Positions 6,193-44,800 of a stretch of DNA of 64,000 bases are shown one piece after another. The translations under genes were made by a program, and so were the position numbers. The DNA is from Halichondria panicea (lineage: Eukaryota > Porifera > Demospongiae > Suberitida > Halichondriidae). The DNA is taken from contig NC_087384.1 in assembly GCF_963675165.1 (NCBI RefSeq), positions 5,635,182 through 5,699,181 of the forward strand, read 5' to 3'. A model generated the notes under the pieces. The model had not been told where the DNA came from, did not search any database, and saw only the letters and a program-made list of their open reading frames with translations. Every line of letters begins with the position of its first letter. Positions within the stretch are counted from its first letter, which is position 1.

Positions 6193-6780
6193 AGCTGTCA
6201 ACAGATTCAACGACAGAAACCGTGCAGAATGAAAGCACCGCGGGTGCTGATGCCTCGGTGGAGGTGCCAAAGCTACATAACATAAAACTACTAATAGCTA
6301 GCTTTTATACACACATTGATTATAATATTATTATCATGATGAACATCTTTAATTTTGCTGCATGCAATCAGCGATTGTTGTTAAAAACGATCGATGCCAA
6401 AAGTTCAAGTCTAAAATTATGGCTGCAAGTCAGCAGAGCCTTGCAGCTCTCTGCTCACTCTTGCAGCTACCAATAGCTAGCATTCTAATAAAGAGCTAAC
6501 TACTAAGTAGAGTAGTAACACTCGGTGAACAAGTTTTGCTACGGACTCTTCTGAAAAGGCTGCAATAGCATTCCAAATAAGCAAAACTAGGCATAACTCG
6601 AGAACGAAGCATTATTTTGCAAATCCACGAATTAAAATCCAAGTAAACATGACTAGAAGCCTATATATAGAAACTCTTACTTGCACTTGATTCATCCTTG
6701 AGCAGCTGTAGCGGTCTACACACACACACACAGAGACACACAAACACACTACTGTATACCTCGCTTGCGCATGTGCACCG
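6193..6780. repeat. Dispersed repeat, inverse copies at 15.66 and 25.43 kb
   Basis: The segment from the CACCGCGGGTGCTGATGCCTC words to the 'cctcgcttgcgcatgtgcaccgagg' words matches, inverted, 15662-16235 and 25431-26008. A more distant relative lies at 43900-44340. It contains a CA-rich microsatellite near 6720-6740. This family sits at both ends of the large tandem duplication, so it probably offered homology for that event. Confidence 0.75.
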
Positions 6781-6797
6781 AGGCATAATTACTGTTA

Positions 6798-6899
6798 GCC
6801 TCGATCCCAGGCCGAGTTTTCGCTTTTATAACGGTTAGGCGAACAACCAGTTGTTTGCCTAACCGTTATAAAAGCGAAAACTCGGCCTGGGATCGAGGC
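6798..6899. repeat. Near-perfect palindromic foldback element (GCCTCGATCCCAGG family)
   Basis: Two arms of about 50 bp (GCCTCGATCCCAGGCCGAG and inverse) meet at a short centre near 6847-6850. TA flanks both ends, as in mariner-like MITEs. Related copies are at 25315-25418 (inside the duplication join), 35987-37064 (arms separated by about 1 kb), 19763-19837 and 63211-63300 (divergent). Confidence 0.85.
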
Positions 6900-7158
6900 T
6901 AAATTACTGTGTGACAGCACTGAATTAATTGTGACAACACTGAAAACTACCAAATTACTGTGGTGAAAAAAGATTGAGCTTGCAGGCTATAGCTATAGGA
7001 ACCATGATTATTTCGAAGGTCGCATTGTGTACACGTGCATATGATCATATTGATGGTACAATGCTCAGCCCCTCCCGGCCTACCATATCTCACAACTTGG
7101 TTTTTTTGTAAAAAACATTTTTATAGAAAGCAAGAAACCTCCTTAATAATTATTAGAC
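6900..7158. other. 3' flank of the RECK-like gene; source of templated sequence
   Basis: No gene is seen. The stretch to about 7102 reappears inverted at 25113-25314 in the join between the two duplicated units. Confidence 0.6.
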
Positions 7159-10100
7159 TTACAAAAACAGTGCAAGTATGGCAGTGACACACAAAACAAT
7201 GAGAGATGTTACACTAGCCAAAGTTTGTCCACCATTGCTAGGCCTGAGTATCTCTTCAAACACGGCCGGGGCGGAGATAGCTGCTCCTGCAAACTGGAGC
7301 ACTTGAGGGCGTGCCAAGTCCTCGTCAGGGGGATTATTAATTAACGAAGCCAAATTCATGCTTGCTTCCCCACAAAACACGTCATCGTCAGGTCCCACCC
7401 CCTCCAACGTGATCTCCAGGTTTTCAGAGGATGTGAAAGACACACCCACCTCACAACGCTCGACCGTCTCTACTGAAATGAAGTTAGCATCAATCAGCAA
7501 CTCGACAAAATCGTCAATAGTGCGCACTCTTGGATTCAGTTTCACGAACTCTCCAAGACCTCTGAAATCTATTGCCACAAGAACAATACCACCTGCAGAA
7601 AGAAAGAAAAACACATTGGAGTCAATTCTGTGGTGTGTATAAAGAGGAAGTTTTGTTGGGAGATATTCATGCACACATTAATATTTGCCTACTGTCAAGC
7701 TTTCTGTGTTTCTGAACATTGTTTGATGTTCCTGGCTCTGTTCAGCTATATAATTATATGCACACTAATTGCTAAAAACGGCCGACAAAATAATTTCGTA
7801 TGTAATGGTGGATTTTACTCACCGCAGAGGGCACAGCAACCCTCCTCTGGTCGTACAAGACGTCTGCAGTTGGAGACGTTGTAGATGCATCGCCTAACCC
7901 TGCTCACCCTCTCACAGACTCCCTGGGGGGTCTGGGTGGGGTCACCTTCGTCCACAGCACAACCCCCAGCGTAGTCTAGACGAGCATTCCCAGACTGACT
8001 CCGCAGGACGCAGATGTTGTCGTAGGTCACACCATCAGTACCGCACACCTGCATGATTGAGGGGGTACGTAAGCAATTGCCCATTCTGTAAATACATCAT
8101 TGTTTATAACGTATATACATAGTACGTTTTGGGGGACAAGTTTCACTGCTATACAGAAGTGGCCTATATATAGATTTGAGTGCATGTTCATTTGAGACAT
8201 TGTTGCATGCATGGCCTTTATGTAACAGTTGGCCTTTCGGCCTCTAAGGCGGGTTCCACTGTATACTATACGTATGTTTAGATCAACTGAAATCCATCAA
8301 AACTGAAAGATGTGCATGGGTAACAACGGCTATACTCTGCATGGTGGGTATGTACGAACCTCTCCTCCATCACACTCCTCCCTATCACATGACCCAGCAT
8401 AAGCCACGCCCTCATTGCCAGTATCCTGTAGGAGCTCACAGAGACTGGAGTACGTCTCTCCGTTAGTCCCGCACAAAATTGTGTTCTCATCATCTTCTTC
8501 TGGGCTCTCAGCAGCTGCATATTGAAGAGGGGGCAGGTACGAGTCAAGTATAGAGAGTATGTAACTTATGTAATTTTGTGACATCAGTCATCTAGCCTCC
8601 TACTGTAAGTACAGGTACAGACCTCTAGAAAAGGAAAGACCTAGCAATAACTTAATTGTATCAACCGCAAGAGCAAAATACTGAAAGCTATAATTAAAAG
8701 GAAGCACTTTTAGAGGTGGACAATTACCTCCTGGTGATTCCGGATCCTCAGAAACATCACACTGTAGCGTGTCAAGGTCCACTGCAGGACGGAAATATGC
8801 ATAATTATGTATGTATACGACATGATATTGATAAGATAAGCACTCTATTTAAGATACGTAGAATACGGAGACAGTATTTGGTGTTCCAGCTCACCACACA
8901 ATCTCAATTCATCGGGCTGGCAACCGTCAGGGTCCAGACATGACACTCCACCCCTTTTGATGCACCTCTCCCCCTCAGGGCATTGAAACTGCTCGCAAAT
9001 GTCCTGTACAGATTAACAAAAGTAATTAATACAACCTTCTGTGCATTAAAATGTATACGTACATGTACATGTGCATGTGTACTTAATTATTTACATATTA
9101 TGCATGCATGTATACGTAGGCATACATTGTATTCCACAAGTGACATCTTCATTGAAGATCAATGAAGTAATTTTTAGCCGTGTGACAGTATAATCTTCAT
9201 ACACCTGCGTATACATGTATATGGTAATTGCACTACATGCATGTACGCACGTAGCACAAAACAGAATGCACATAACTCACATAATCAGCGCAAGATCCCT
9301 CCACAAGATCAAATGGTGGGTAGCCACCGCAATATATAGCATGACACTCGGTTTGATACGTCTTTCCGTTGGGAGCACACATGGGAGAGAGGGGAAACTG
9401 GTCACATGACGAGCAGGTGTCTCCGATGGGTGCTTCGGCACAGCGAATGTGTGTGCACTGGATCCTCCCATTACGACATCCACACCTGTTGCAGCCCTCC
9501 TGTTGATATAGACAATGAACTTAAATGATCAGCAAACACACATGATATGCGTGCGTATATAACACAGGTAATAGCTTTGGTGACACATAAGGACTGTTAC
9601 ATTAAACAAGTGTGTGAAATAACACATACTGACCTTACTATATTTTCCCCCCATCATAATTTCATATTACGTAACATTTGTAACTGCATGTTTTCCCACA
9701 CTAAAAGCACAATAATTTACCGTAAACTGGTCTCCGTGAGTGTACTCCAGTCCCTGGTACCGACAGGAAGTAGGTGTGGCACTGAGAGCCCTGCATACTG
9801 ACGGTTCACAGAGTGTGGCTTGTCCGTTGTCACAGAGACACCTGGTACAGCTGACAATATCGAATAAGTACTCTCCATGAGTAGCTGTGAATGTCTCCCC
9901 TACAACCTCCACACTGCAGCCCTCAAACACTGCATGTACAAATGTCTAAAATTACCTAAACTGTATGAATCTCCATTCTTTTATATACTTGCCAGTATTA
10001 AACTAAATTATGGATAAATTGATCATTGATCTGAGGTTAGAGCTCAATGGTTACTAAAAACCATCGATACGATTTATTTTCTTTATACTCAATCCAGTTA

Positions 10101-13100
10101 ACAAGCATGCTAGGTACTGTACTTGTTAATACTCTCACTAATTAGATTCTTTACAAAAGCAAAGCGACAACTGAAATGACTCACTCACCTCTACTCTCAC
10201 AGTCAGGAGCGTCCACAATGTCCATCACTGTTACTTCTGTACCCGTGATGGCCATACCCGTATCGGGGCGGACACAGCGACACACAAGCTCAGCCCCTTC
10301 CTCTCGGCACTGAAGAGCCTCAAAACTGCCGTCAGTGGCACAGTCCAACACTGAGCCCTGTTCACGGGCCACAACACACACACCTGCACAGAGATAGTAT
10401 ATTATCTTGTGGTCAGAGTATGATATTTACCACCAAATTAATGTGTGGCCTCCTCAAAGTCTATAAGACATACCTCTCATCACATGACATGGGATCCCTT
10501 AATTTAATTTATTATGGAACTCCGAAAAAATGGTATCGCTATGATCTGAGAACTCACCGGCAGAATTCTCTGGACGACACTCTCTCCTACCCAGGGCCAC
10601 TCGGCTACACACCAGTCCCTCCCCACAAGGGGGCATGGCCTCCTTCAGCTGACCAAAGATACGACGATCGTTGGCACCAGTGATTCGCCCCCTGGCTCTT
10701 TGCTTGCCTCTCTTCCTCCCAGTGGAGGCCTCACTCGAGTCCTCTGAGTCATCTTCATCTTCATCTTCCCCGGCAATCTCTCCATCACACCTTTCACCCT
10801 CAGCAAGGGCTGTGGGGATGGATGGCACAGTAAGGGGTGAGTAGCAGGGCCGTGTGTGGGCATGCACAATGCAAATGAAGGTGTCACAGCAAGAAACCAT
10901 GACAATAATGTTTTACCATTATATATTTACGGTTTCTATATGCGCACCTATAGGTGCACTTATACATGCACATAACCGTGAAAGTTAAGTTTTTAAAGTG
11001 GTCTGCTGAGGATTAATGTGGGGGATGGGTGGGTGGTCACTTACCGTCTACACAAGATCTCAGTCCAAATCTCCCCACTTTCAGACACACCTGGTCATCA
11101 CTGCAATTACAAGGGTCTTCTGAGAACTCCAGTTCATCAAATTCATCTACATGGGAGGTTACCATGAAAGCAAGAGACTGACAATCACGTACATGTACTA
11201 AACGTGCAGCTAATTAGTCTCTATGACAAATTGTGCCTGGCAGAATACATACATGGGGATTAAGACATGCATATTTAGCACAATGACCTTAATTACAGGG
11301 TATATATGTTACTTAAAGTACACGCCTATACTAACCATAGCATGTTCTGTTGCAGGCTGGACACCCGTCATCATCTTCTACTAGACACTCCTCAGGACAG
11401 CCTTTCTCCAGAAGCCTCTGCACAGTCACACACTTGCTCCTCGATTTGCTACCAGAGAAACTCGTCTCAGTGGAAGAACTTGTGTCGCTAGAATCTGAAC
11501 TGGAGGATTGACTTGAACCAGAACTTCCAGAAGACCGACTTGTTTCAGATGAACGATTTGTTCCAGATGAGCGACTTGTTCCAGATGAGCGACTTGTTCC
11601 AGATGAGCGACTTGTTCCAGATGTGCGACTTGTTCCAGATGTTCTGGAAGACCTACTGGAACCAGAAGATCGTGTCGTCCCAGATGTACCAGTGGATCGA
11701 CTTGTATCACTCTCTTCCTCAGTTGGCTCTTCTACTGTCACTGCAGTTGTCTCAGGATCAGTGGGTGTGGTCTCAGGGTCGGTAGCTGTGGGTGCTTCTG
11801 TGGGTGTATCCGTGGGTTGAGTCTCAGGATCTGTGGGTGTGTCCGTGGGTTGAGTCTCAGGGTCTGTGGATGTGTCAGTGGGTTGGGTCTCAGTGGTGGG
11901 AGCATCAGTCACCTCAGGTTGTGCAGTTGTCGTTGAAGCAGCTGGATCGAGGTGTAGATTTGAAGTTAGTTACATCCCTATACTTATACAATGTATACAT
12001 GGTAGGGTAACATTTCAGAATACAAACTATACATTTTCTGTGAGCAAATGTGATATCAATACTTTATAGGTAGTTGTAATACATTGCCCAAGAAGATTGT
12101 TTCATTATGTAAGAGAAATAGTTATGACAACATGCATGGCTGCATTAAGAATTTGTACTCAAATCTCTAAAGGCAATGTACACAAACTAGTCTTAATAGG
12201 GTTATGATTGCATTATGATATAGATTAGCTGCCAGGACACCGAAGATAATTTGATTACAACCTCTTGTTTGCAAAACAAGCCTATATATATATACGTATA
12301 GGGCAATGGCCATAAGAAGTCATGTATATACGCAAGGCAATTGACATGCATATCGTATTACTACAGAGACTTATACTCTTGTTTTGACATCCTGATATTT
12401 TCCTAATTGAAAAAATTATAACACGAAGTTCTGCATTCTGGCTTGGCTCATTCGCTAAGGTTTATCACTCGCAATCACTCACACGCACTTGGTACTCAAG
12501 CTAGCCTATACCCTTAACTTAACATTAACAACTTACTTGTCATTGATGGTGGTGATGTGGGTTCCATGGGAAACACTGAATAAGTATAGAAGAAGAAAGA
12601 TCACTAGAGCTCTAGACTTACATACACACACTTATTAACGAAGTATATGCACATGCAATAGGATCGCAAATAGTGAGTGCCAACAACTTTCTCACCTTCA
12701 ATGCAGTCAATAAAAAGGTCTTCTTCATCAAAGAAGATACCACTCCCTACCAAATCTCCAGAGATGGGATCAACACATCGACACACACCCAGGTTACACT
12801 GTCTGGCCAGGAACAAAGTGCCATCAGTGCTATTGCACAGTATGTGAGGGCGCTCATCCTTAAGTTCTTGACATGAGAGCATTTCAGGATTGGAGTCTGC
12901 ATGCATGCAATGAGAAGGAAAACAGTATTAACGGACTTTCTAAGTAAATTGGCTTGGTATATTCATGCAATGTCCGCTGCTTCAGAGGACAAAGCACATG
13001 ATTGTATATACCGTGCATGCAGTTGCAGGTTGGCAAGATGCTATATAGCTTCCGTACATGCATGCCCTTGCACTTCCTCTCCTTTACATTTAGCTATAAT

Positions 13101-14658: not shown

Positions 14659-19686
<5,028 letters not shown>

Positions 19687-19762
19687 GATAGATATGGATA
19701 TGGTATAGTGCAGTGCTAGCGATCAGAGGTAATGTGAAATGGGTGTGGCCACCTTCGGTTCA

Positions 19763-19837
19763 CAAGCTAGCCTCGACCCCAGGCCGATCCGTCTCCAATT
19801 GAACACTAAAAAAATCGGCCTGGGACCTTATTCACTA
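19763..19837. repeat. Small foldback of the GCCTCGA..CCCAGG family
   Basis: The arms 'gcctcgaccccaggccgat' and 'atcggcctggga' face each other across about 25 bp. It is a shortened, diverged relative of 6798-6899. Copy B is at 29535-29609. Confidence 0.6.
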
Positions 19838-19946
19838 GTCTGGCCCTAGACCACTCCCTTGCACGTGATCTGACATGTGCCCCGGGAGGAGTCTGGCCTC
19901 GAGACTAGCTATTCATGCTAGATCTCCTATGAGATGCTAGAGACTA

Positions 19947-19989
19947 CTCATGAATCAGCCGCACTTTCCAAGTGCGGCTGATTCATGAG
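19947..19989. repeat. Perfect hairpin, 20-bp stem, 3-base loop
   Basis: The left arm CTCATGAATCAGCCGCACTT is followed by a three-base loop and the exact inverse. Related words ('gactgattcatgaga', 'agagactact') occur at 40108-40205, so it is probably a relic of a mobile palindrome. Copy B is at 29719-29761. Confidence 0.8.
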
Positions 19990-21570
19990 ACTAGCTAGAG
20001 ACAGACAAGATCCAGAACAAGACAAGGAAGGAAGGTACGTGTAGATATATACAGCACCTCGACCTCATGAGGAGCAATTTTGCTGGCAAACCGTTGGAAG
20101 CTGGTAGAACTCCGAGTGCATGTCTACAATATGTTCAGAAGGAGAGCACTCGATTCATCTCTTTGTTTATCCTGTAACTTAACTGTCGTGACCATTGAAT
20201 TAAGTGATGAATTCACAGTGTCAACCATTAAATTGTACAGTTTGTGCTCAAATATTCTATATGGGCTGCGAAACAAATTCCACCAGAATGTTGAACAATC
20301 CTTCGTGATGATCGAGTGCTAGACTGATCAATAAAACAAAAACTGGATTATGCTAGCATGCAATGTAGGACAACAACATTCGAGTAGGAGTTCTAATAAA
20401 TTCCGCGTACATTAGCTTCAATCACATCATAGATCGTACTGTTCTATCACTGAAAACACAAAGCCAGGCTGAGTCTCTTGAACATCATCTGGGTATATAC
20501 AGTGATATGGCGTACTAAATAGATATTAGACATTGGAAGGTTTTGGAGTAGGATTTATGCTAGCACCACCTATAATGTTTGTCAGGTCTTCCACGGGCAG
20601 TGTAATTGATATTGTACAATCGAAAGCGCTTATTTCAAGAAAATACATTCGTTGAGATAAACAAAATACTTGAGGAAACAAGCATACTATCAGCAGCTAC
20701 AATCCATTGCTGCAATTATGCAAGTTAATAATTGTATCACATTTCACATTACCTCAGATCATGCCCCTCAGTGTCTTCAGCTTCTAAGGTAGAATGAATG
20801 GAGCCTCCAATTAGTACAGGAAGGGTGTATGCCTAGGTTGCTCTTGAGGCTAGCAGAGTCTACCTCTTTGTAGCAGGTACGTTGGCTATTTAGAACGACC
20901 AGTTCATGTGAGAGTAATCCCCCTCGATTTCTTTTCAGGTAACCAACCGACCACTGTCCGATAACACAAAAGCACCTGCCAATGCCCTCCCCTATGCTAT
21001 AGGCTGATTACGTTTCTATCCCTATAATGGTTTTAAGCGCTCTTTCGCAAAGACGCTATACTTATTTCACTCCCCCACTAGGTATGTACCTAGTGTGCCA
21101 CTGATAATTACCATGTCAACAACATATTTCTGACTAAGCCCTAATAAATTATTCTTACCCATTATTCTAATTCTTGAAAAATGTGCCTATTCTCATAAAT
21201 ATTATGGTCCGATTATTCTCATAAAAAATCCTAACAAATTGACAATACAAAATTTAAAAGGTAAACATAAACACACCACACAAAACTGAAACACAACATA
21301 TCATGACTCTCGATGTTATCTTGCTGATAAGCCATTAGGATGTCGTTATGCAAAACTTAATGAAAGGATCTTTACCAAAAATTAACATTGCCCAACTATT
21401 CTTTAGACACCTATTATGCTCCGAGCATAATTTATTAAGTATGCTTGTGTAAGAACCTAAATATTGAGCATGACCATCGGACAATGAAATACATAGTTTT
21501 TGTAAACATAATTATTACACATTATTTGTTCATAAGTTTCTTTGTCTCTGTGCTAAATCGAACATATGTT

Positions 21571-23477
21571 TTACTTCTTTCCTGGCGGGGTTGGAGCTAG
21601 CTTAGAGAGCTGGTCTGCAAGATCCATGGCCATTGCACTCATGGCACAAGTGGGGTTCCAGGCACCGCCAGTCGGCCAGAGAGATCCGCCGGTAAGGTAG
21701 ACATTTTCCACTCCTCGAAACTTGTAGTCGAGACCCACAGGAGCAGTAGGGTCGTCATCTCCCCCAATCCACATAGTGGAAGCTTCGTGCACAAGCCCAG
21801 GGACACGTCTCTCCTTCTTGGTTGGCCTGGCGACTCCATTCCAGTTACCTAGCTCGGGGCTCCAATACTCAATCTGGGTTTTATCTCCGCCAGGGGTCAA
21901 GTAGTCCTCGAGAACTTGAAAAGTGGTATCATCCATAGCATTCCAACATGAGTTGTCTTGATCATTGGCCACAACCTGCAAAACAGCATTGGAAGTGATG
22001 TCTTCACCATTGTCTTTCTTGTACCAGTTTTTCGAGTTTGTATGGTCGAGTTCTCCCAAACAGGCACAAACAAATACGACGTATCCATGGGAGGAGACTA
22101 GTTGCTGGAAGGATGGAGCAGCCACTACATCAGGTAAGTGACGCATGGTGTCGTAGATATTTTCCACTGGCGTGTCATCGATAATTGCCGTTAGTTGGAT
22201 ATGAAACTGTGCTCCTGTAACAGTATCCTTTCCCGGCACATATATTGCAGCCATTTGTAGCAGTCCCTGGTTATCTTGCAGAACTTTTGTGTATTCCACC
22301 TCGGTTTTCTGTGCTGTGAACACGTTTGTCTTTCGTGTGATAGATGTAACAGGAACACGGGCAATGATGGAACTGATAAAATGGGAGGTGAATCGTGCTC
22401 CAATGTTGGCTAGCTCTGGAAATGGAGAGGAATTGAGCATTAAAGTGGTGGGGGGTAGCGTTCCCATGGCAAGAATAAGCTTGGCACTGCCCAGAGTAAA
22501 GTCTCCTAAACTAGTATCGAGGATAACTGCTTTTCTCCCATCGTAAACAATTTTCTTGACACAGCATTTCATGACCACTTTTAGCGTTTGAGGGGTTTTG
22601 TTTCTCTTGCTTTCTTGATTTTTCTGGATAAGAATGTTAAGGATTGGTCCAGACGCAGAAAATTTGTTGTAGTCTTCATACCTGTATTTAGAAAGTACAT
22701 ATGTATAATTATATATACAAGTCATAATAAATTATATAGTAAAGTATATTCTGGAATGCCTGCATGCTGGTAAGTTATGCAATCTCTCTCTCACCTGTAC
22801 ATCTTAGCTCCTACAGCAAGTGGTGCATATTCGATTCTGCTCACAGTTGCTATTTTTTCAGGTACTGGCTTCAGTTTCTTGTAGACCAATTGCTGCAAGG
22901 CACCAAAAATATGACTGTCAGCGCCACTCTCTTTGCTGGAGATTTCGTTTGCTGGGACTACATTGAGCACCCCCTTAGCTGCAGGGAAGTAGGAATGCAC
23001 CTTCGCTTTAAGTTCAGCAGGCCACCCCTCCATCTCATCATCTTTTGGTTCTGGACACCAAGCACTCCAAAACGATGATCGACCACCAAAGTAGTTGTTC
23101 ATGCCATGCTGGAACTTGATGTACTCTCCATTATGCGTGTCTTCAGTGATTCGCCAGTGGAAAGTCTCCGCTTGACCCCCCACAGTGAATGTATAGGCAG
23201 GGGGGAGGTTCTGGAAATGCTCCGGATGAAAATAAGCCCCGCGATCCATCACAAGTATCTTTGCATCAGGCTTGTTGCCAATCATTTGCTGAATAAAGCT
23301 GAGGCAACAAAAAGAAGAACCAACAACAACATAATCAAAATTTCCTGACACGCTATCAATTTTCCACTGCTCCTCGTTCATGAAGTAGATTTTGGTCATG
23401 ATATCGTCGACTGAGACCTCCTGTTGTCCAGCTGTAGGATAGCCATTCTTACTCTGAGTAGGCAATTGGGCCATCAT
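21571..23477 (-). CDS. GMC-family FAD oxidoreductase (pyranose-oxidase-like), copy A
   Basis: Two exons, 22795-23477 and 21571-22681, give 597 residues, normal for the family. Start at the first of the two Met codons at 23472-23477; two more in-frame upstream codons exist but sit near a TATA box. The N-terminal FAD-binding strand is FDYVVVGSSFCC, in which the usual GxGxxG fingerprint keeps only its first Gly. YFGGRSSFWSAWCPEP matches the GG-x-S-x-x-W motif of pyranose 2-oxidase and related GMC enzymes. The C-terminus keeps the catalytic His region (GLVHEASTMWIGG) and WPTGGAWNPTCAMSAMAMD, the GMC C-terminal signature with its Asn. Such enzymes oxidise alcohols or sugars. The substrate is unknown. 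The single intron contrasts with its intron-rich neighbours, which could reflect later acquisition. It lies upstream of AKR7 on the same strand. Confidence 0.85.
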
Positions 23478-23560
23478 GCACCTGAACTGTGCAACTATAT
23501 AAGAGAAGAGTTGAAATAATGATGGACTTGAGTAACAGTTATGACTCAATGATGTCCTGA

Positions 23561-23567
23561 TTTTATA
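23561..23567 (-). promoter_or_regulatory. TATA-box candidate for GMC copy A
   Basis: The minus strand reads GCTATAAAATC about 85 bp upstream of the start codon chosen at 23477. It supports that start over Met codons lying upstream. Motif-based. Confidence 0.5.
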
Positions 23568-24163
23568 GCATTCCAAAAGGAAATTGGGTAGTCTGTGGTA
23601 TTAATCTGTAAACTCCCCCTGGAAGTACATAATTAACATCACCCTAATGCTGCATGGGATCAGGAGTACTCCTGATGGGATGCATGCATGCATGAAAACT
23701 ATATTATTATGTACCAGCCTATATTTATAGATCTATATACTTAGTGATTTTTCAGTTGTGATTTACTGCAGCTGCATGTATAAATAATACATTAAGGGTA
23801 TATAGCGTGCATGCATGGAGGAGAATACTTTGATAGGATTATGGCTTTAGCATAATCCTTGAGTCTACGTATTTGTGCGTATGGATTAATATAATCCACA
23901 ACCGTTTGTACATAATAGATCTGTTTCCTCCTTGAGAAATTTCCAACAATGTTCTCACTATAAAGTGTAAATATAGCTAACTGCAATTACAAGGATTTAC
24001 ACATAATTATAGCAAACATACAACAGATGAGAGTAAGTAATTTTGTATTATGCATGTATAATTATATAGTATACTGATTATAAATGTGGTTCATGGTTCC
24101 TTTAGAAAGCTATACTTTCTTAGAAACCTTGTAATTCAATTGTGTTGGGAGACCACGGCATTC
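23568..24163. other. Upstream region of GMC copy A
   Basis: No gene recognised. It contains TGCATGCA-rich stretches near 23680-23695 and 23805-23820. The same sequence is present upstream of copy B at 33340-33935. Confidence 0.5.
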
Positions 24164-25013
24164 TTTGATGGCTTGTAATTTAATAAAGATTATCAGTGTT
24201 GATACTACTTGGTTGAGAAATTACCACTGTATTTTCACAGATGTCTTGCAATACCACACCACTAAACCAACAGAGGGATATCCATAAAACAGGTTTGACA
24301 ATAGTAATTCTATAGTGCAATACTCTAATATTCAGTTCCAACTTATCTCTGTCTCCCAGTGCTGCAGTCCATGTGCAATTTTGTTCCAACTTGTTGTACT
24401 CTCCCAGTGCAGTGCATGTGCAATTTTATTACAGAGATGTATAATTATAATGCAATGGGACTTCCCCACTTGTATAGCCATGTTTTAAACACACAAATGT
24501 AAAAGGAACTCTCTCCAATGCATACAAGCGGCCTTGTATATATTGAGTGATCCTATATTTATAATTATTTTGAGGACAATTGTATAAGAGTTTATTAGGA
24601 AGAGTACGCAACTTCACTTAAAACTGTAGTGGGCGTTCTGTCTAACTTACGTCTTATAACTACATGCACATGCTGTTTGATGGCTTGTAATTTAATAAAG
24701 ATTATCAGTGTTGATACTACTTGGTTGAGAAATTACCACTATATTTTCACAGATGTCTTGCAATACCACACCACTAAACCAACAGAGGGATATCCATAAA
24801 ACAGGTTTGACAATAGTAATTCTATAGTGCAGTACTCTAATATTCAGTTCCAACTTATCTCTGTCTCCCAGTGCTGCAGTCCATGTGCAATTTTGTTCCA
24901 ACTTGTTGTACTCTCCCAGTGCAGTGCATGTGCAATTTTATTACAGAGATGTATAATTATAATGCAATGGGACTTCCCCACTTGTACAGCCATGTTTTGA
25001 ACACACAAATGTA
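24164..25013 (+). repeat. 512-bp direct repeat, second unit cut by the duplication join
   Basis: The sequence starting 'tttgatggcttgtaattt' at 24164 begins again at 24676 and then runs almost identically to 25013, where the join begins. In copy B the same pair is longer (33936-35011). Short open frames in it are repeated only because the DNA is. Confidence 0.85.
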
Positions 25014-25490
25014 AAGGCAATTGACATGCATATCGTATTACTACAGAGACTTATACTCTTGTTTTGACGATAGTCAATTTTCGTGTGATACTCTTCAATA
25101 TACGAAAATTTTAACCAAGTTGTGAGATATGGTAGGCCGGGAGGGGCTGAGCATTGTACCATCAATATGATCATATGCACGTGTACACAATGCGACCTTC
25201 GAAATAATCATGGTTCCTATAGCTATAGCCTGCAAGCTCAATCTTTTTTCACCACAGTAATTTGGTAGTTTTCAGTGTTGTCACAATTAATTCAGTGCTG
25301 TCACACAGTAATTTAGCCTCGATCCCAGGCCGAGTTTTCGCTTTTATAACGGTTAGGCAAACAACTGGTTGTTCGCCTAACCGTTATAAAAGCGAAAACT
25401 CGGCCTGGGATCGAGGCTAACAGTAATTATGCCTCGGTGCACATGCGCAAGCGAGGTATACAGTAGTGTGTTTGTGTGTCTCTGTGTGTG
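25014..25490. other. Templated patchwork join between the two duplicated units
   Basis: 25014-25068 equals 12334-12388 (direct, an intron of the RECK-like gene). About 25064-25113 equals the inverse of 2469-2518 (intron of the channel-like gene). About 25113-25490 equals the inverse of about 6721-7102, including the palindrome now at 25315-25418. The shared bases at the joins are AAGG, TTGAC and a single A. The last piece ends in a GT microsatellite where unit B begins. Confidence 0.9.
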
Positions 25491-26247
25491 TCTGTGTAGA
25501 CCGCTACAGCTGCTCAAGGATGAATCAAGTGCAAGTAAGAGTTTCTATAGGCTTCTAGTCATGTTTACTTGGATTTTAATTCGTGGATTTGCAAAATAAT
25601 GCTTCGTTCTCGAGTTATGCCTAGTTTGGCTTACTTGGAATGCCATTGCAGCCTTTTCAGAAGAGTCCGTAGCAAAACTTGTTCACCAAGTGTTACTACT
25701 CTACTTAGTAGTTAGCTCTGCACTAGAACGCTAGCTATTGGTAGCTGCAAGAGTGAGCAGAGAGCTGCAAGGCTCTGCTGACTTGCAGCCGGCCATTAAT
25801 TTTAGACTTGAACTTTTGGCATCGATCGTTTTTAACAACAATCATGGTTGATCATTTGGTTGATTGCATGCAGTAAAATTAAAGATGTTCATCATGATAA
25901 TTATAATCAATGAATGTGTGTATAAAAGCTAGCTATTAGTAATTTTATGTTGGCACCTCCACCGAGGCATCAGCACCCGCAGTGCTTTCATTTAATTTTG
26001 CGTCTTAGGCATGGCAATGACGTTGTGTCCACTGGAAAACTTTTATTTTAATTTTAAATGTGGCGATCTTCGGTAAAATTCGTCAAATCGCCTTAAAACA
26101 CCCACCAAATTTTCCAGTTATAAACTACAACTACTGCTAACTAATGAAAAGACTAGCAAAAGCAAAACTTCAGTTAAGATAAGACTTTCACTTTCAAATT
26201 ATCAACAAAAAACAGGCATCGAATACAAAATATACCAAACAACACAC

Positions 26248-29458
<3,211 letters not shown>

Positions 29459-31342
29459 GATAGATATGGATATGGTATAGTGCAGTGCTAGCGATCAGAG
29501 GTAATGTGAAATGGGTGTGGCCACCTTCGGTTCACAAGCTAGCCTCGACCCCAGGCCGATCCGTCTCCAATTGAACACTAAAAAAATCGGCCTGGGACCT
29601 TATTCACTAGTCTGGCCCTAGACCACTCCCTTGCACGTGATCTGACATGTGCCCCGGGAGGAGTCTGGCCTCGAGACTAGCTATTCATGCTAGATCTCCT
29701 ATGAGATGCTAGAGACTACTCATGAATCAGCCGCACTTTCCAAGTGCGGCTGATTCATGAGACTAGCTAGAGACAGACAAGATCCAGAACAAGACAAGGA
29801 AGGAAGGTACGTGTAGATATATACAGCACCTCGACCTCATGAGGAGCAATTTTGCTGGCAAACCGTTGGAAGCTGGTAGAACTCCGAGTGCATGTCTACA
29901 ATATGTTCAGAAGGAGAGCACTCGATTCATCTCTTTGTTTATCCTGTAACTTAACTGTCGTGACCATTGAATTAAGTGATGAATTCACAGTGTCAACCAT
30001 TAAATTGTACAGTTTGTGCTCAAATATTCTATATGGGCTGCGAAACAAATTCCACCAGAATGTTGAACAATCCTTCGTGATGATCGAGTGCTAGACTGAT
30101 CAATAAAACAAAAACTGGATTATGCTAGCATGCAATGTAGGACAACAACATTCGAGTAGGAGTTCTAATAAATTCCGCGTACATTAGCTTCAATCACATC
30201 ATAGATCGTACTGTTCTATCACTGAAAACACAAAGCCAGGCTGAGTCTCTTGAACATCATCTGGGTATATACAGTGATATGGCGTACTAAATAGATATTA
30301 GACATTGGAAGGTTTTGGAGTAGGATTTATGCTAGCACCACCTATAATGTTTGTCAGGTCTTCCACGGGCAGTGTAATTGATATTGTACAATCGAAAGCG
30401 CTTATTTCAAGAAAATACATTCGTTGAGATAAACAAAATACTTGAGGAAACAAGCATACTATCAGCAGCTACAATCCATTGCTGCAATTATGCAAGTTAA
30501 TAATTGTATCACATTTCACATTACCTCAGATCATGCCCCTCAGTGTCTTCAGCTTCTAAGGTAGAATGAATGGAGCCTCCAATTAGTACAGGAAGGGTGT
30601 ATGCCTAGGTTGCTCTTGAGGCTAGCAGAGTCTACCTCTTTGTAGCAGGTACGTTGGCTATTTAGAACGACCAGTTCATGTGAGAGTAATCCCCCTCGAT
30701 TTCTTTTCAGGTAACCAACCGACCACTGTCCGATAACACAAAAGCACCTGCCAATGCCCTCCCCTATGCTATAGGCTGATTACGTTTCTATCCCTATAAT
30801 GGTTTTAAGCGCTCTTTCGCAAAGACGCTATACTTATTTCACTCCCCCACTAGGTATGTACCTAGTGTGCCACTGATAATTACCATGTCAACAACATATT
30901 TCTGACTAAGCCCTAATAAATTATTCTTACCCATTATTCTAATTCTTGAAAAATGTGCCTATTCTCATAAATATTATGGTCCGATTATTCTCATAAAAAA
31001 TCCTAACAAATTGACAATACAAAATTTAAAAGGTAAACATAAACACACCACACAAAACTGAAACACAACATATCATGACTCTCGATGTTATCTTGCTGAT
31101 AAGCCATTAGGATGTCGTTATGCAAAACTTAATGAAAGGATCTTTACCAAAAATTAACATTGCCCAACTATTCTTTAGACACCTATTATGCTCCGAGCAT
31201 AATTTATTAAGTATGCTTGTGTAAGAACCTAAATATTGAGCATGACCATCGGACAATGAAATACATAGTTTTTGTAAACATAATTATTACACATTATTTG
31301 TTCATAAGTTTCTTTGTCTCTGTGCTAAATCGAACATATGTT
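29459..31342. other. Region between AKR7 copy B and GMC copy B
   Basis: Copy of 19687-21570 with the same foldbacks (29535-29609, 29719-29761) and decayed repeats. No gene recognised. Confidence 0.5.
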
Positions 31343-33249
31343 TTACTTCTTTCCTGGCGGGGTTGGAGCTAGCTTAGAGAGCTGGTCTGCAAGATCCATG
31401 GCCATTGCACTCATGGCACAAGTGGGGTTCCAGGCACCGCCAGTCGGCCAGAGAGATCCGCCGGTAAGGTAGACATTTTCCACTCCTCGAAACTTGTAGT
31501 CGAGACCCACAGGAGCAGTAGGGTCGTCATCTCCCCCAATCCACATAGTGGAAGCTTCGTGCACAAGCCCAGGGACACGTCTCTCCTTCTTGGTTGGCCT
31601 GGCGACTCCATTCCAGTTACCTAGCTCGGGGCTCCAATACTCAATCTGGGTTTTATCTCCGCCAGGGGTCAAGTAGTCCTCGAGAACTTGAAAAGTGGTA
31701 TCATCCATAGCATTCCAACATGAGTTGTCTTGATCATTGGCCACAACCTGCAAAACAGCATTGGAAGTGATGTCTTCACCATTGTCTTTCTTGTACCAGT
31801 TTTTCGAGTTTGTATGGTCGAGTTCTCCCAAACAGGCACAAACAAATACGACGTATCCATGGGAGGAGACTAGTTGCTGGAAGGATGGAGCAGCCACTAC
31901 ATCAGGTAAGTGACGCATGGTGTCGTAGATATTTTCCACTGGCGTGTCATCGATAATTGCCGTTAGTTGGATATGAAACTGTGCTCCTGTAACAGTATCC
32001 TTTCCCGGCACATATATTGCAGCCATTTGTAGCAGTCCCTGGTTATCTTGCAGAACTTTTGTGTATTCCACCTCGGTTTTCTGTGCTGTGAACACGTTTG
32101 TCTTTCGTGTGATAGATGTAACAGGAACACGGGCAATGATGGAACTGATAAAATGGGAGGTGAATCGTGCTCCAATGTTGGCTAGCTCTGGAAATGGAGA
32201 GGAATTGAGCATTAAAGTGGTGGGGGGTAGCGTTCCCATGGCAAGAATAAGCTTGGCACTGCCCAGAGTAAAGTCTCCTAAACTAGTATCGAGGATAACT
32301 GCTTTTCTCCCATCGTAAACAATTTTCTTGACACAGCATTTCATGACCACTTTTAGCGTTTGAGGGGTTTTGTTTCTCTTGCTTTCTTGATTTTTCTGGA
32401 TAAGAATGTTAAGGATTGGTCCAGACGCAGAAAATTTGTTGTAGTCTTCATACCTGTATTTAGAAAGTACATATGTATAATTATATATACAAGTCATAAT
32501 AAATTATATAGTAAAGTATATTCTGGAATGCCTGCATGCTGGTAAGTTATGCAATCTCTCTCTCACCTGTACATCTTAGCTCCTACAGCAAGTGGTGCAT
32601 ATTCGATTCTGCTCACAGTTGCTATTTTTTCAGGTACTGGCTTCAGTTTCTTGTAGACCAATTGCTGCAAGGCACCAAAAATATGACTGTCAGCGCCACT
32701 CTCTTTGCTGGAGATTTCGTTTGCTGGGACTACATTGAGCACCCCCTTAGCTGCAGGGAAGTAGGAATGCACCTTCGCTTTAAGTTCAGCAGGCCACCCC
32801 TCCATCTCATCATCTTTTGGTTCTGGACACCAAGCACTCCAAAACGATGATCGACCACCAAAGTAGTTGTTCATGCCATGCTGGAACTTGATGTACTCTC
32901 CATTATGCGTGTCTTCAGTGATTCGCCAGTGGAAAGTCTCCGCTTGACCCCCCACAGTGAATGTATAGGCAGGGGGGAGGTTCTGGAAATGCTCCGGATG
33001 AAAATAAGCCCCGCGATCCATCACAAGTATCTTTGCATCAGGCTTGTTGCCAATCATTTGCTGAATAAAGCTGAGGCAACAAAAAGAAGAACCAACAACA
33101 ACATAATCAAAATTTCCTGACACGCTATCAATTTTCCACTGCTCCTCGTTCATGAAGTAGATTTTGGTCATGATATCGTCGACTGAGACCTCCTGTTGTC
33201 CAGCTGTAGGATAGCCATTCTTACTCTGAGTAGGCAATTGGGCCATCAT
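31343..33249 (-). CDS. GMC-family FAD oxidoreductase, copy B
   Basis: Exons 32567-33249 and 31343-32453; the predicted protein is identical to copy A. The whole gene and at least 1.7 kb of upstream DNA lie inside unit B, and the sequence upstream of that is the original flank. Copy B therefore keeps the ancestral promoter setting, while copy A has only about 1.5 kb before the join. Domain features are as for copy A, including the degenerate GSSFCC nucleotide-binding loop. Confidence 0.85.
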
Positions 33250-33332
33250 GCACCTGAACTGTGCAACTATATAAGAGAAGAGTTGAAATAATGATGGACT
33301 TGAGTAACAGTTATGACTCAATGATGTCCTGA

Positions 33333-33339
33333 TTTTATA
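33333..33339 (-). promoter_or_regulatory. TATA-box candidate for GMC copy B
   Basis: Same GCTATAAAATC motif, 84-90 bp upstream of the start at 33249. Confidence 0.5.
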
Positions 33340-33935
33340 GCATTCCAAAAGGAAATTGGGTAGTCTGTGGTATTAATCTGTAAACTCCCCCTGGAAGTAC
33401 ATAATTAACATCACCCTAATGCTGCATGGGATCAGGAGTACTCCTGATGGGATGCATGCATGCATGAAAACTATATTATTATGTACCAGCCTATATTTAT
33501 AGATCTATATACTTAGTGATTTTTCAGTTGTGATTTACTGCAGCTGCATGTATAAATAATACATTAAGGGTATATAGCGTGCATGCATGGAGGAGAATAC
33601 TTTGATAGGATTATGGCTTTAGCATAATCCTTGAGTCTACGTATTTGTGCGTATGGATTAATATAATCCACAACCGTTTGTACATAATAGATCTGTTTCC
33701 TCCTTGAGAAATTTCCAACAATGTTCTCACTATAAAGTGTAAATATAGCTAACTGCAATTACAAGGATTTACACATAATTATAGCAAACATACAACAGAT
33801 GAGAGTAAGTAATTTTGTATTATGCATGTATAATTATATAGTATACTGATTATAAATGTGGTTCATGGTTCCTTTAGAAAGCTATACTTTCTTAGAAACC
33901 TTGTAATTCAATTGTGTTGGGAGACCACGGCATTC

Positions 33936-35280
33936 TTTGATGGCTTGTAATTTAATAAAGATTATCAGTGTTGATACTACTTGGTTGAGAAATTACCACT
34001 GTATTTTCACAGATGTCTTGCAATACCACACCACTAAACCAACAGAGGGATATCCATAAAACAGGTTTGACAATAGTAATTCTATAGTGCAATACTCTAA
34101 TATTCAGTTCCAACTTATCTCTGTCTCCCAGTGCTGCAGTCCATGTGCAATTTTGTTCCAACTTGTTGTACTCTCCCAGTGCAGTGCATGTGCAATTTTA
34201 TTACAGAGATGTATAATTATAATGCAATGGGACTTCCCCACTTGTATAGCCATGTTTTAAACACACAAATGTAAAAGGAACTCTCTCCAATGCATACAAG
34301 CGGCCTTGTATATATTGAGTGACTGTTTGTATAGTTTTGATAGTCTTTATATATATAGCTTGTATATATAGCTTGTACAGCCATGTTTTGAACACACAAA
34401 TGTAAAGGGAACTCTCTCCAATGCATACAAGCAGCCTTGTATATATTGAGTGACTGTTTGTATAGTTTTGATAGTCTTTATATATATAGCTTTCAATTGT
34501 ACATAGCCATTCCTCCTTCTCCCATTGTGCATGTACGCGAGCGGCAGATCCTATATTTATAATTATTTTGAGGACAATTGTATAAGAGTTTATTAGGAAG
34601 AGTACGCAACTTCACTTAAAACTGTAGTGGGCGTTCTGTCTAACTTACGTCTTATAACTACATGCACATGCTGTTTGATGGCTTGTAATTTAATAAAGAT
34701 TATCAGTGTTGATACTACTTGGTTGAGAAATTACCACTATATTTTCACAGATGTCTTGCAATACCACACCACTAAACCAACAGAGGGATATCCATAAAAC
34801 AGGTTTGACAATAGTAATTCTATAGTGCAGTACTCTAATATTCAGTTCCAACTTATCTCTGTCTCCCAGTGCTGCAGTCCATGTGCAATTTTGTTCCAAC
34901 TTGTTGTACTCTCCCAGTGCAGTGCATGTGCAATTTTATTACAGAGATGTATAATTATAATGCAATGGGACTTCCCCACTTGTACAGCCATGTTTTGAAC
35001 ACACAAATGTAAAGGGAACTCTCTCCAATGCATACACAAGCGGCCTTGTATATATTGAGTGACTGTTTGTATAGTTTTGATAGTCTTTATATATATAGCT
35101 TTCAATTGTACATAGCCATTCCTCCTTCTCCCATTGTGCATGTACGCGAGCGGCAGATCCTGTATTTATAATTATTTTGAGGACAATTGTATAAGAGTTC
35201 ATTAGGAAGAGTACGCAACTTCACTTAAAACTGTAGTGGGCGTTCCGTCTAACTTACGTCATAACTACATGCATGCTGTA
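33936..35280 (+). repeat. Tandem repeat array upstream of GMC copy B
   Basis: The direct repeat of copy A is present here in fuller form. A block running from 'gaactctctccaatgcatac' to 'gatagtctttatatatatagc' occurs three times (about 34278-34365, 34399-34490, 35015-35101). The block 34316-34545 has no counterpart in unit A. The end of the array repeats 'ttgaggacaattgtataagag' (34568 and 35177). Confidence 0.8.
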
Positions 35281-35982: not shown

Positions 35983-35986
35983 AGTA

Positions 35987-37064
35987 GCCTCGATCCCAGG
36001 CCGAGTTTTCGCTTTTATAACGGTTAGGCGAACAACTGGGCCTGGTACTAGTTGTCTGCGCATGCGTCAAATTTTCATTGTATATTTGTGGTCGGCAAAA
36101 ATATTTAATAAATCAATAATAGAAATTTGTACACAGAAAATGCACAGAGTGAGTACACAAAAGATGTACATAGGGAGCTGCTTCACAAAGGCCTGGGGAG
36201 TTGCCAGTTGTGCTGCAGCACAATTACAGTGACCCAGGGAAACTTCAGGATGATTGAATGCCTTCAAATTACGTTTCAAAAAGATTTAGCAGGCTGCTGG
36301 ACTTCTGTGATTCTAGGCCCCAACTCGTAACTCAGTTAAATTTTGCTTGAGAAAACGTAGATTCTCTTGATGTCTCTGAGCTACCCAGCAACGCTCGAAT
36401 GAGCAGGTCATACTCCAGTCCTGTGAGTATAGGACAATATTAAAAGAAACCAAAGACGGTTAAACCCTTACCTCAAACTGTCCAGTCTCGTCCGTTAGTA
36501 TAGCCAAGAGGAGCACTGTTGGGATAGCTGGATATTAGCCATTGCTCCTAGATCCTGTACAGAGAAGTAGACATTTTAAATACGTGTAGATCTATACATA
36601 TTAAATTTCTCGGTTATAGTGTCATTGTCGACGAGCTGATGATGGCAGCACCAAGTTCACTAGCTCACACTCTTCACTTGATCCACCATATTAATGATGA
36701 AACTATAGTCTACCTACGTACCGGTAGATCTTGCCAAACATGAACAAGACTTAATAGCATAGCCATAGGGCCCACACAAAAATATCTGACCTTAACAAGC
36801 TTGACAAAGCTTTATACCTCTTCCCTTGTTGTTCAGTCTTCAGAATAAGCTTCAGAGAAGAGAGAAGCTTCAGCCATTCCAATCGATTCCAATAATGATA
36901 AAACGGGAACTGACTTCTAGTACACGATAGTACACGAATATAAATGTCACGAAAGTGAACGAGAATATCCATTTGTCAGAATCTGACGAACGACTGACGC
37001 ATGCGCAGACACCAGTTGTTCGCCTAACCGTTATAAAAGCGAAAACTCGGCCTGGGATCGAGGC
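35987..37064. mobile_element. Foldback transposon with long GCCTCGATCCCAGG arms
   Basis: The left arm (35987-36070) and right arm (about 36988-37064) are inverse of each other over about 75 bp, with a slightly longer spacer on the left and inner ends TGCGCATGCGTCA / TGACGCATGCGCA. TA flanks both ends. This is the only long member of the family in the window; the others are solo palindromes. The interior has no transposase I recognise. It has two short minus-strand open frames and, near 36420-36480, a GTAAGG..CACAG stretch that looks like an intron, so it may carry captured host sequence. Confidence 0.8.
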
Positions 37065-37066
37065 TA

Positions 37067-37380
37067 GCAGAGGAGCAGAGGACCTGATCTCACACTCTAC
37101 CTGAATAATTATACAATGATTTTGATGCAGATATTCTGATGATAGTATATCATTGTGCTCCTCACTATAGCCTATAGTGAGAGCACAATGATGTAATTAT
37201 ACTATCACCAGAATATCTGCTTAGCAATGGTTTTGATTCAGATGTTCAGACTGGTGATAGTATATCATTGTGCTCTCACTATATAGGCTATAGTGAGGAG
37301 CACAATGATATACTACACCAGAACATCTGCATCAAAACCATTGTAAGCATAGAGTGTGATCAGGTCCTCTGCTCCTCTGC
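37067..37380. repeat. Nested triple palindrome
   Basis: The outer arms GCAGAGGAGCAGAGGACCTG (37067) and inverse (to 37380) enclose two large hairpins at 37127-37220 and 37238-37330. Each has about 45-bp arms with the shared word 'atagtatatcattgtgctc', centred on 'ctatag'. The two hairpins are also related to each other, so the whole can fold as a three-way structure. Confidence 0.85.
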
Positions 37381-41830: not shown

Positions 41831-44800
41831 TCAGCCCACTCCCTGATCTATGCCACACCCACCTGACTCCTCCCCCTCAGTATCGAGGTACTTGGTCTTA
41901 TACTCGTTCATAGCAGTCTCGTAAGACAGTGGTGGCCATCGATGCTCCTCCACATAAGAGAGGTTGTCTTCGCCCAATTGCAGAAATTGTTCATTTGCCT
42001 CCAAAACATTGAAATTGCTTGAGATGAAGTGGAGGCACCAACTACTGAGCTGAGACGCGTTGTGCAGCTGTGAGGAGAGCAGGAGTCCTGTGTGTGTGTG
42101 TGGGGTGTGTGTGTGTGTGGAGCTGTGAGGAGAGCAGGAGTCCTGTGTGTGTGTGGGGTGTGTGTGTGTGTGGAGCTGTGAGAAGAGCAGGAGTCCTGTG
42201 TGTGTGTGGGGTGTGTGTGTGTGTGTGGAGCTGTGAGGAGAGCAGGAGTCCTGTGTGTGTGTGGGCATTACAGTTTGTAATTCAGTATGGAGCAGTCGAA
42301 TTTCTGTCAACGTAAATATTTCAACGAAGCACTGATAAATTTGTGCTGGAACCGAAATCACTGATTACCTACACAATGATGTGTGTACAGTTGTACAGGC
42401 TGTGTGTAGTGTTAGTTGGTTGGTACGTACATTAGCTGAGGCAACTCAATGAATGTAGGATCGATGTACCAACACTCTCTACAGTCGGTCGGTACTAACT
42501 ACCTCTTATGCCTTGGCCCTTAGTGAGATTGAGGATGGAAAATAGCCACCACTTAACAAACTCTTGGGCATGACCTCACCTATAATTAGGCCCTGGCAAA
42601 TTATGCCGGCATAATTTGGGGCATAATAGGGTTAAAAATTTTGAATTCGGTTCAAATAGGACGGTCCTCTGCTGCTGCTGAATGTGTTTTTTCTCTTTTA
42701 AATGACTCTTTCACATCTAGAAGATTATGTTGAATCTTCAGTTATGTTACAAATGTACAATACAACAAGAGATAATTTTTGCTAATATTATTGCTGAAAA
42801 AAGGACGTCAATGTGGGGCATAATGGGTTCTTTTGACAAGCATAATAGGCTGAATTTGGGGCACTGCTCAAAAGCATAATAGGCAGAAGAAAGAGCATAA
42901 TTTGCCAGGGCCTACCTATAATGTCGACGTTTGCTTTCGCAATAAAATCTTTAGTGGCCCTCTCCACGTGCTTGGAGATGTACAGTTCACACAGTGACAT
43001 CAGCCGACTCATCATGTACCTGTCGTGAGCCAGCAAGGAAGAGGGGAGGAGTCAACAATGCAAGTGACAAACATCATGTGGAGAATATGTATTGCTCTAA
43101 TTTTAAATACACATACCCACTGTATAATTATTATCTGAGGTTGGCTTTCCTTAAATGCAACTGACAAACATCTATACTTTCAAGTTTTGGTCCTCAGTAC
43201 AATAAGCGACTAACTAACGAGCCTATACAGTCAGGAGTGCATGTACTCCTGATACAGTACAACAATTTCACACCTATTGGCCAGCTCCAATATTCCCATA
43301 GAGTCCCCCTCCTCAATGGGAGCGTGGTCAGTGTACAGGTACTCGAGGAAACTCACAAACGTGTCCAATGGTATATCAGGGACGGATATCTGAGGAGAGA
43401 GGAGAGATAAAGGTTCCTGCGTAGTAATTCTGCTGCAATTAATAGAGCAAGATCTTTGTACGGTTCTTGCAAATATTAAGGTATAAAGTGCATCCCAACA
43501 AACAGAGTGATTCTATTTGGGGAGATGAAATCAACTTTATTGTGTGCAGAATTCTGTTATTCTAGCTAGGGATTATAATACACTTTCAGCAAGTGAGGCT
43601 ATAATTTTTTGATTAACCGTATCTATGACAACCTACTTGGTTAGCTGTGCTCTCTTGGAAGGCTCCAGACAACATGGCCGACATGACCTCACATCGTGTG
43701 GTCAGTACTAGTCGGTGAGCGGGGACAACCACACCCTCCACTAGGAAACACACATCAGAGAACAGTTCCTGCGTGTGTGTGGGTATGGGGGGGAGGGTGG
43801 TGATAAAACAGGTACAAGTGTCTTCTATTCTAAAATACAATTGTACAAAAGATGCATCATAATCTCACGCACTCAAAAGTCAGTTACTCGACCCTGATTG
43901 TTGCTAAAGAAGGTTGCCAAAAGTTCAAAGTCCATAATTACGACTGACTGTATGCCGCATTCTCAAAACAGTGCAGCTTTGCAGCTCTTTCCTCACTTGC
44001 AGCTAATTGCAGCTAGCTAGCACTATAATTATATGTTATATCTACAGATTTTTCTACACACGAGTCTGAAGAACGAAGATAATTTTGCAGATTTAAAACA
44101 CTCTTTTCACCTAAAGGATGGGTTCAGGATTGACGTAGCAGTTATCAGCCCTACACCAACAAGTTACTGTAATACTAGTAGATCGTTTAAAAGTAGGGAC
44201 ACATACACTGGGGACCCTGAGATTGTTGCTGCTAAGCTCAACTATAGAAGCCTATACAGAAGCTCGTACGAGTCTACAGACACGTAATGAACACACTACC
44301 GTATACTTCGCTGCGCATGCGCACACCGAGGCATAATGATGCACAAGTACAACCAACCAGCACACAAACACACAGAAACACAGCGTACATACACCTTATT
44401 GAGAAATAGTTGTTTTGTGATGCTGGTGTTTCTAATCGGAATCAGATACTCCTCCCCTTTACGAGCATTCTCACACACCAGCTCCAACTCGGGTAAATTC
44501 AGCAGCTGAGAAATCTTGATTGTTTCGTCAATACATTCGCTCTCTTTGCCAAGTTCCATCACTCCAGTGTAGAGGAATGTTAGGACACGAGTTAGCGCTA
44601 GCTCCGTCACTATGGAGGGGTCAAAGGTCACCTCCATTAACTGCCTACCGTCCAAATCAAGTCTATATAGCGTAAAAATTAAGTATATGGCCTGTTGATT
44701 TCAACACACAATGTTAGATTCATACATACATGTTAAAAATGTATATCAAGAATTATAGGTACAGTAACAGTGTAGCATAAAACAAAGTGTATTTCAGATA

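Follow-up and report, generated by a model that had tools for sequence, protein, structure and literature searches.

Duplicated genes and other features of the window

The window, a 64,000-nucleotide stretch of contig C8 (5635182–5699181), contains a segment of about 9.4 kb that is duplicated in tandem; the duplication was identified by self-BLAST and by comparison of the two copies, units A and B. Judged by its genes, the DNA is probably that of an animal. Both units carry exons resembling those of a GMC oxidoreductase and of an aldo-keto reductase. The main features are as follows.

15659–25017, plus strand: unit A, the first copy (self-BLAST, A/B alignment)
25485–35015, plus strand: unit B, the second copy, with A-type sequence from 25485 on (A/B alignment, base-by-base walk)
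16405–18449, minus strand: aldo-keto reductase-like exons, duplicated (18270–18449 scored against PF00248, E 3e-10, and PDB 2bp1, E 1.1e-8)
21574–23600, minus strand: GMC-type oxidoreductase-like gene, duplicated (PF05199, E 7e-6, in 21574–22731)

One of the six reading frames submitted for the aldo-keto reductase-like gene scored in Pfam, and its other exons were assigned by eye. The best four of the six PDB matches to the scoring exon are AKR7-type aldehyde reductases, and we take the exons to be AKR7-like. In the GMC-like gene, the upstream exon (22794–23600) was also assigned by eye and had no Pfam match, and the GMC exon had no match in the PDB. A protein search with the GMC-like gene gave moderate matches, including those in Oopsacas minuta (50% identity) and Dysidea avara (47%), beside others in bacteria and a plant, so that a sponge host would be a guess. 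A database protein, P0001, is 99% identical to the GMC exon and differs upstream of it, from the exon edge at window position 22731. The comparison suggests that P0001 comes from another allele or another assembly of the same species. A further match, P0122, is encoded on a 1.3-Mb contig in ENA data and is 100% identical to a protein of the window over 97% of its length; the contig may derive from a second individual or from the same one.

Elsewhere in the window, a hAT transposase dimerisation domain was detected at 4583–5083 (PF05699, E 1.3e-9). Segment 3172–3873 gave a Pannexin-like match above the cut-off and an innexin match below it, with 13 related proteins, all of them unnamed, and would gain interest if the host were a sponge. 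On the minus strand, 44299–47051 gave Ras-family and weak BTB matches, and we presume it to be possibly a RhoBTB-like gene.

Relationship between the two units

Units A and B differ at a single position over 8,831 bp (15720–24550, compared at an offset of 9772), with position 18142 being C in A and A in B. At the right end, 24549–25017 in A and 34547–35015 in B are identical at 469 of 469 positions. The 131-Mb genome (39 contigs) was searched by scoring the best candidates and skipping common words, so that absence from these results does not prove absence from the genome. Among the best 40 of 1,487 candidates, the full-length unit was found at no third place; only A and B were recovered, with B in two pieces because of a 226-bp deletion in A. 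The possibility that a second haplotype had been written into the assembly as a tandem copy was not favoured, given one difference in 8,831 bp and the failure to find either the unit (best 40 of 1,487 candidates) or the array at its right end (best 40 of 1,898) on other contigs.

The right end of both units (34241–35279 and 24164–25015) is occupied by a complex local array with offsets of 131, 512, 607 and 738 bp, and the best 40 of 1,898 candidates included no match to it outside C8. Segment 16705–17067 has many genomic relatives at about 70–84% identity. Some are found in another tandem pair, L029–L030 (C5:632001–652000), which has a spacing of 9.2 kb and, judged by its divergence of about 2%, would be older than the duplication in the window.

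Structure of the junction

The junction between the units is a patchwork of three copied pieces, bounded by four joins (J1–J4). A further discontinuity, Jdel, lies within unit A. The joins, pieces and donors are listed below.

24549–24550, plus strand: Jdel, overlap GA, where A is missing 226 bp of B and the A/B offset shifts from 9772 to 9998
25014–25017, plus strand: J1, overlap AAGG, end of unit A to donor 1 (base-by-base walk)
25064–25068, plus strand: J2, overlap TTGAC, donor 1 to donor 2 (base-by-base walk)
25113, plus strand: J3, overlap A, donor 2 to donor 3 (base-by-base walk)
25485–25491, plus strand: J4, overlap TGTGTGT, from donor 3 into the start of the unit, at corresponding positions in two copies of one repeat (base-by-base walk)
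25014–25068, plus strand: copy of donor 1 (12334–12388, direct; self-BLAST 55/55, E 2.5e-23)
25064–25113, minus strand: copy of donor 2 (2469–2518, inverted; self-BLAST 50/50, E 1.3e-20)
25113–25491, minus strand: copy of donor 3 (6724–7102, inverted; 379 bp, 0 mismatches in a base-by-base walk)
12334–12388, plus strand: donor 1, still in place (genome search)
2469–2518, minus strand: donor 2, still in place, with two weak relatives elsewhere (genome search)
6724–7102, minus strand: donor 3, still in place; outside the repeats, its sequence was recovered only at this place and at the junction (genome search)

An earlier note on this DNA had described the junction as 55 bp identical to 12334–12388 in the same orientation, about 50 bp identical to 2469–2518 and about 380 bp identical to 6721–7102, the last two inverted, with microhomologies AAGG, TTGAC and A. 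When the junction was aligned locally to the whole window, as that note had proposed, the exact joins were recovered. The first two pieces matched over their full length, the third became 25113–25491 aligned to 7102–6724, and the walk gave precisely the three microhomologies. The note had also placed all donors less than 25 kb upstream, and they lie 12.6–22.6 kb from the join, within 23 kb, in mixed orientation and in one 10-kb neighbourhood. Kazal-type inhibitor domains are found near donor 3 (7818–8096 and 9236–9520, the second below the Pfam cut-off).

No substitutions were found between the pieces and donors 1, 2 and 3. All three donors remain in place with identical copies at the join, which agrees with the note's view that the sequence was copied rather than moved, and movement of the donors was rejected. 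In the genome, the donor-1 query had two matches of two scored, the original and the join. The donor-2 query had four of four, comprising the same two places as exact matches and two weak matches (77–79%). With donor 3, two of 54 alignments extended beyond query base 68, where the repeat ends, one at the donor itself and one at the junction, with 40 of 419 candidates scored. On the basis of these searches, the idea that the donors are dispersed repeats was rejected for the first two and for the non-repeat portion of the third.

The length of the overlaps was compared with that in 200,000 random joins drawn in the window. At least one base was shared in 45% of the random joins, at least two in 17%, at least four in 1.9% and at least five in 0.6%. 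Three overlaps summing to at least 10 bp have a probability of 0.0013, and four summing to at least 12 bp a probability of 0.0009. The overlaps of 4, 5, 1 and 2 bp at J1, J2, J3 and Jdel are therefore jointly longer than expected by chance (P about 0.001), with those at J3 (1 bp) and Jdel (2 bp) ordinary when each is taken singly. Plain chance as the source of the pieces was rejected by the self-BLAST E-values together with this null.

A repeat pair and a palindrome at the fourth join

J4 differs from the other joins in that it falls within two copies of a dispersed repeat of about 560 bp, listed here with a palindrome that was copied along with donor 3.

6228–6788, minus strand: repeat copy at donor 3, providing homology at J4 (89.5% identity over 581 bp to 15659–16220, inverted)
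15659–16220, plus strand: repeat copy at the unit start (self-BLAST; further loci compared)
25313–25420, palindromic, no strand assigned: 108-bp palindrome copied with donor 3 (96% self-complementary; source 6795–6902; about 65 bp from J4)

Thirty-nine further places in the genome match the repeat part of the query (40 of 3,327 candidates scored, 47 alignments), and in the six further loci that were compared the match begins at about the same point. The junction matches the donor copy up to and including 25491 and the unit copy beginning at 25485, with the shared TGTGTGT lying in a TG tract inside the repeat. With both strands counted, the window offers 128,000 sites, and a blind jump would be expected to hit the corresponding one roughly once in 10^5 attempts; the switch at J4 was therefore probably guided by homology. 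About 9 kb separates the two repeat copies, which are oppositely oriented. Direct repeats at both ends of the unit, as NAHR would require, were not found; the unit's right end (35015) lies in an unrelated array, and the repeats at J4 are inverted relative to each other.

The palindrome may have caused the switch at J4, from which it is separated by the short distance given above. It belongs to a palindromic element with arms of about 52–56 bp that is found at 6795–6902 and 25313–25420, and also at 35985–36039 and 36995–37070, with many copies genome-wide. The donor-3 copy of the element folds into a long hairpin.

A 226-bp deletion in the first unit

The 226 bp missing from A are found in B as follows.

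34323–34548, plus strand: 226 bp present in B and missing in A, placed to within the 2-bp overlap (A/B alignment)

Both edges of this segment are spanned by paralogous copies in the array of unit B, the left edge by 33936–34361, which resembles 34674–35101 (98.4%), and the right edge by 34372–34674, which resembles 34979–35279 (96.7%). Because these copies span both edges, the form in B looks ancestral. The deletion lies about 465 bp from J1. Since only one base has changed in 8.8 kb after the duplication, an unrelated deletion so large and so close is unlikely, and the deletion is probably a fifth break of the event that produced the patchwork. It sits in a repetitive tandem array and may instead be independent of that event. 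Slippage within the array was not favoured as its source, as 226 is not among the array offsets and only GA is common to the two edges.

Origin of the junction

We consider it likely that the junction was made in a single episode of break-induced replication in which the template was switched serially, as in MMBIR or FoSTeS. A replication fork would have broken or collapsed here and been restarted by break-induced replication, with the new strand leaving its template repeatedly. Read from left to right in the ancestral order, the path would run along the unit, omit the 226 bp (GA) and continue for about 470 bp more, before turning back to 12334–12388 (AAGG), then in inverted orientation to 2518–2469 (TTGAC) and on to 7102–6724 (A). 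The last switch would enter the start of the unit via the second, opposed copy of the same dispersed repeat, and the unit would then be copied again to give a tandem duplication with a patchwork join. In the opposite reading, from right to left, the path would begin with the homology-guided switch and the microhomology jumps would follow; the sequence is compatible with either direction.

The retained donors and their mixed orientation, their distance of 12.6–22.6 kb, the 379-bp piece, the microhomology and the repeat-guided switch all fit break-induced replication. Copies of retained donor templates stand at the join, as FoSTeS/MMBIR would lead one to expect, and microhomology exceeds chance for the joins jointly, with J3 singly as the exception. 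The single base at J3 counts against template switching, as blunt joining also produces such overlaps. Four or five joins occur in units that have hardly diverged (1 base in 8,831), so that a single recent event would be a simpler account than five independent ones; all segments are on one assembled contig. The earlier note had read the junction as FoSTeS/MMBIR. Serial switching still appears to be the best reading, with the modification that the event mixes homology at J4 with microhomology and probably includes the deletion in A. We have assumed, as that note did, that the join is germline.

Among the alternatives, a homologous-repair intermediate that failed could have been joined by polymerase theta-mediated end joining, giving the patchwork and the duplication together through several primer–template switches. 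Worms lacking HELQ-1 accumulate tandem duplications, roughly 100 bp to 10 kb in size, with the junction hallmarks of the theta pathway, and 14% of that pathway's products in these mutants resemble patchworks (PMC8654963). The overlaps of 1–5 bp and the pieces of 50–55 bp suit such an origin as well, but the templated inserts described in worms map to sequence flanking the break (PMC8654963), whereas the donors here are well outside the flanks, one piece is much longer and one join uses repeat homology. The sequence alone accommodates both, and the distance of the donors and the length of the third piece favour replication, making the theta pathway an unlikely source. Separate ordinary events (repeat exchange, insertions and a deletion) stacked at one place are the least credible of the explanations considered. 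J4 by itself resembles recombination between repeats, but an exchange between opposed copies about 9 kb apart would yield an inversion and not a duplication, and the absence of substitutions between pieces and donors, with one base change in 8.8 kb, leaves little time for four or five rare events.

An artefact of assembly or library preparation, in which a chimeric molecule made the assembly graph circle back so that one unit was written twice, is very unlikely. The near-identity of A and B would fit, DNA amplification is reported to yield chimeric reads (PMC6515389), and the 1-base and 226-bp differences could be two alleles if local heterozygosity is low. Nevertheless, A and B are not identical, the chimeric molecule would need four exact jumps, and no other contig with the unit was found among the best 40 of 1,487 candidates scored. 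Less credible still is a scenario in which end joining captured loose pieces of DNA where the junction of a tandem duplication had broken. Extra fragments from a sister or homologue would leave the donors in place, and the overlap at J3 is just 1 bp, but pieces of 55, 50 and 379 bp would all have to come from one 10-kb neighbourhood with overlaps of 4–5 bp, and one fragment would have to join the unit at the corresponding point of the repeat that the two share.

Comparison with known systems

Tumour genomes contain rearrangements described as local n-jumps and cycles of templated insertions (PCAWG, PMC7025897). The junction described here resembles them in that several templates in mixed orientation are strung together and the string returns to the host locus and replicates a host segment again, the use of local templates corresponding to local n-jumps in the classification given there. 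The cycles are from tumours and typically join different chromosomes, whereas the pieces here are local, 50–379 bp long, and found in an assembled, animal-like genome with one repeat-guided switch. Human PLP1 gains attributed to MMBIR/FoSTeS likewise involve several switches per gain, and in two of the cases described one switch occurred at opposed L1 or Alu copies and the others at microhomology or microhomeology (PMC6902434). Those gains are human disease alleles. Templated insertions produced by MMBIR in the human germline, some from three or more and up to five templates, are kept as germline variants, but are reported not to produce complex rearrangements in general; here the pieces lie within the junction of a tandem duplication (PMC8421209).

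In yeast, some segmental duplications formed by BIR and MMIR involve dispersed repeats and others microhomology or microsatellites. The two routes account for different duplications there, whereas both kinds of switch are found in one join here (PMC2518615). The theta-pathway products of C. elegans helq-1 mutants are similar in combining patchwork insertions with tandem duplications of up to about 10 kb, and differ in the source of the inserts (PMC8654963). In Drosophila, 14 of 644 CNV breakpoints carried both added or deleted bases and microhomology (PMC4056370). A literature search on sponge genomes and MMBIR found no paper.

Similar joins were sought in 264 kb around this one, using pieces of at least 35 bp with at least 98% identity. 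The scan yielded 117 pieces and 25 abutting pairs, 14 of which were listed after merging: six from this join, five from a tandem array, one from the palindromic element and two from a single uncharacterised place near window-coordinate 106835. The scan was small and insensitive, missing J3 itself because the donor-3 alignment, once extended, falls below 98%, and other such joins may have been missed too. The join is a well-preserved and unusually clean example of a class of scar that is already known.

Significance

A more detailed scenario, which we regard as unlikely, has a single restart beginning with a homology switch between opposed repeats beside a fork-stopping palindrome; microhomology would then have carried three jumps, the 226-bp slip would have come last, and no mutation would have followed. 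If a whole restart is recorded in this join, palindromic mobile elements would seed such gene duplications in the lineage. As the pieces have no mutations relative to their donors and switches at homology and microhomology are mixed, the junction is a readable example of gene duplication that would have arisen by a replication accident. It illustrates this outside the usual model species, and its exact breakpoints are suited to a population test.
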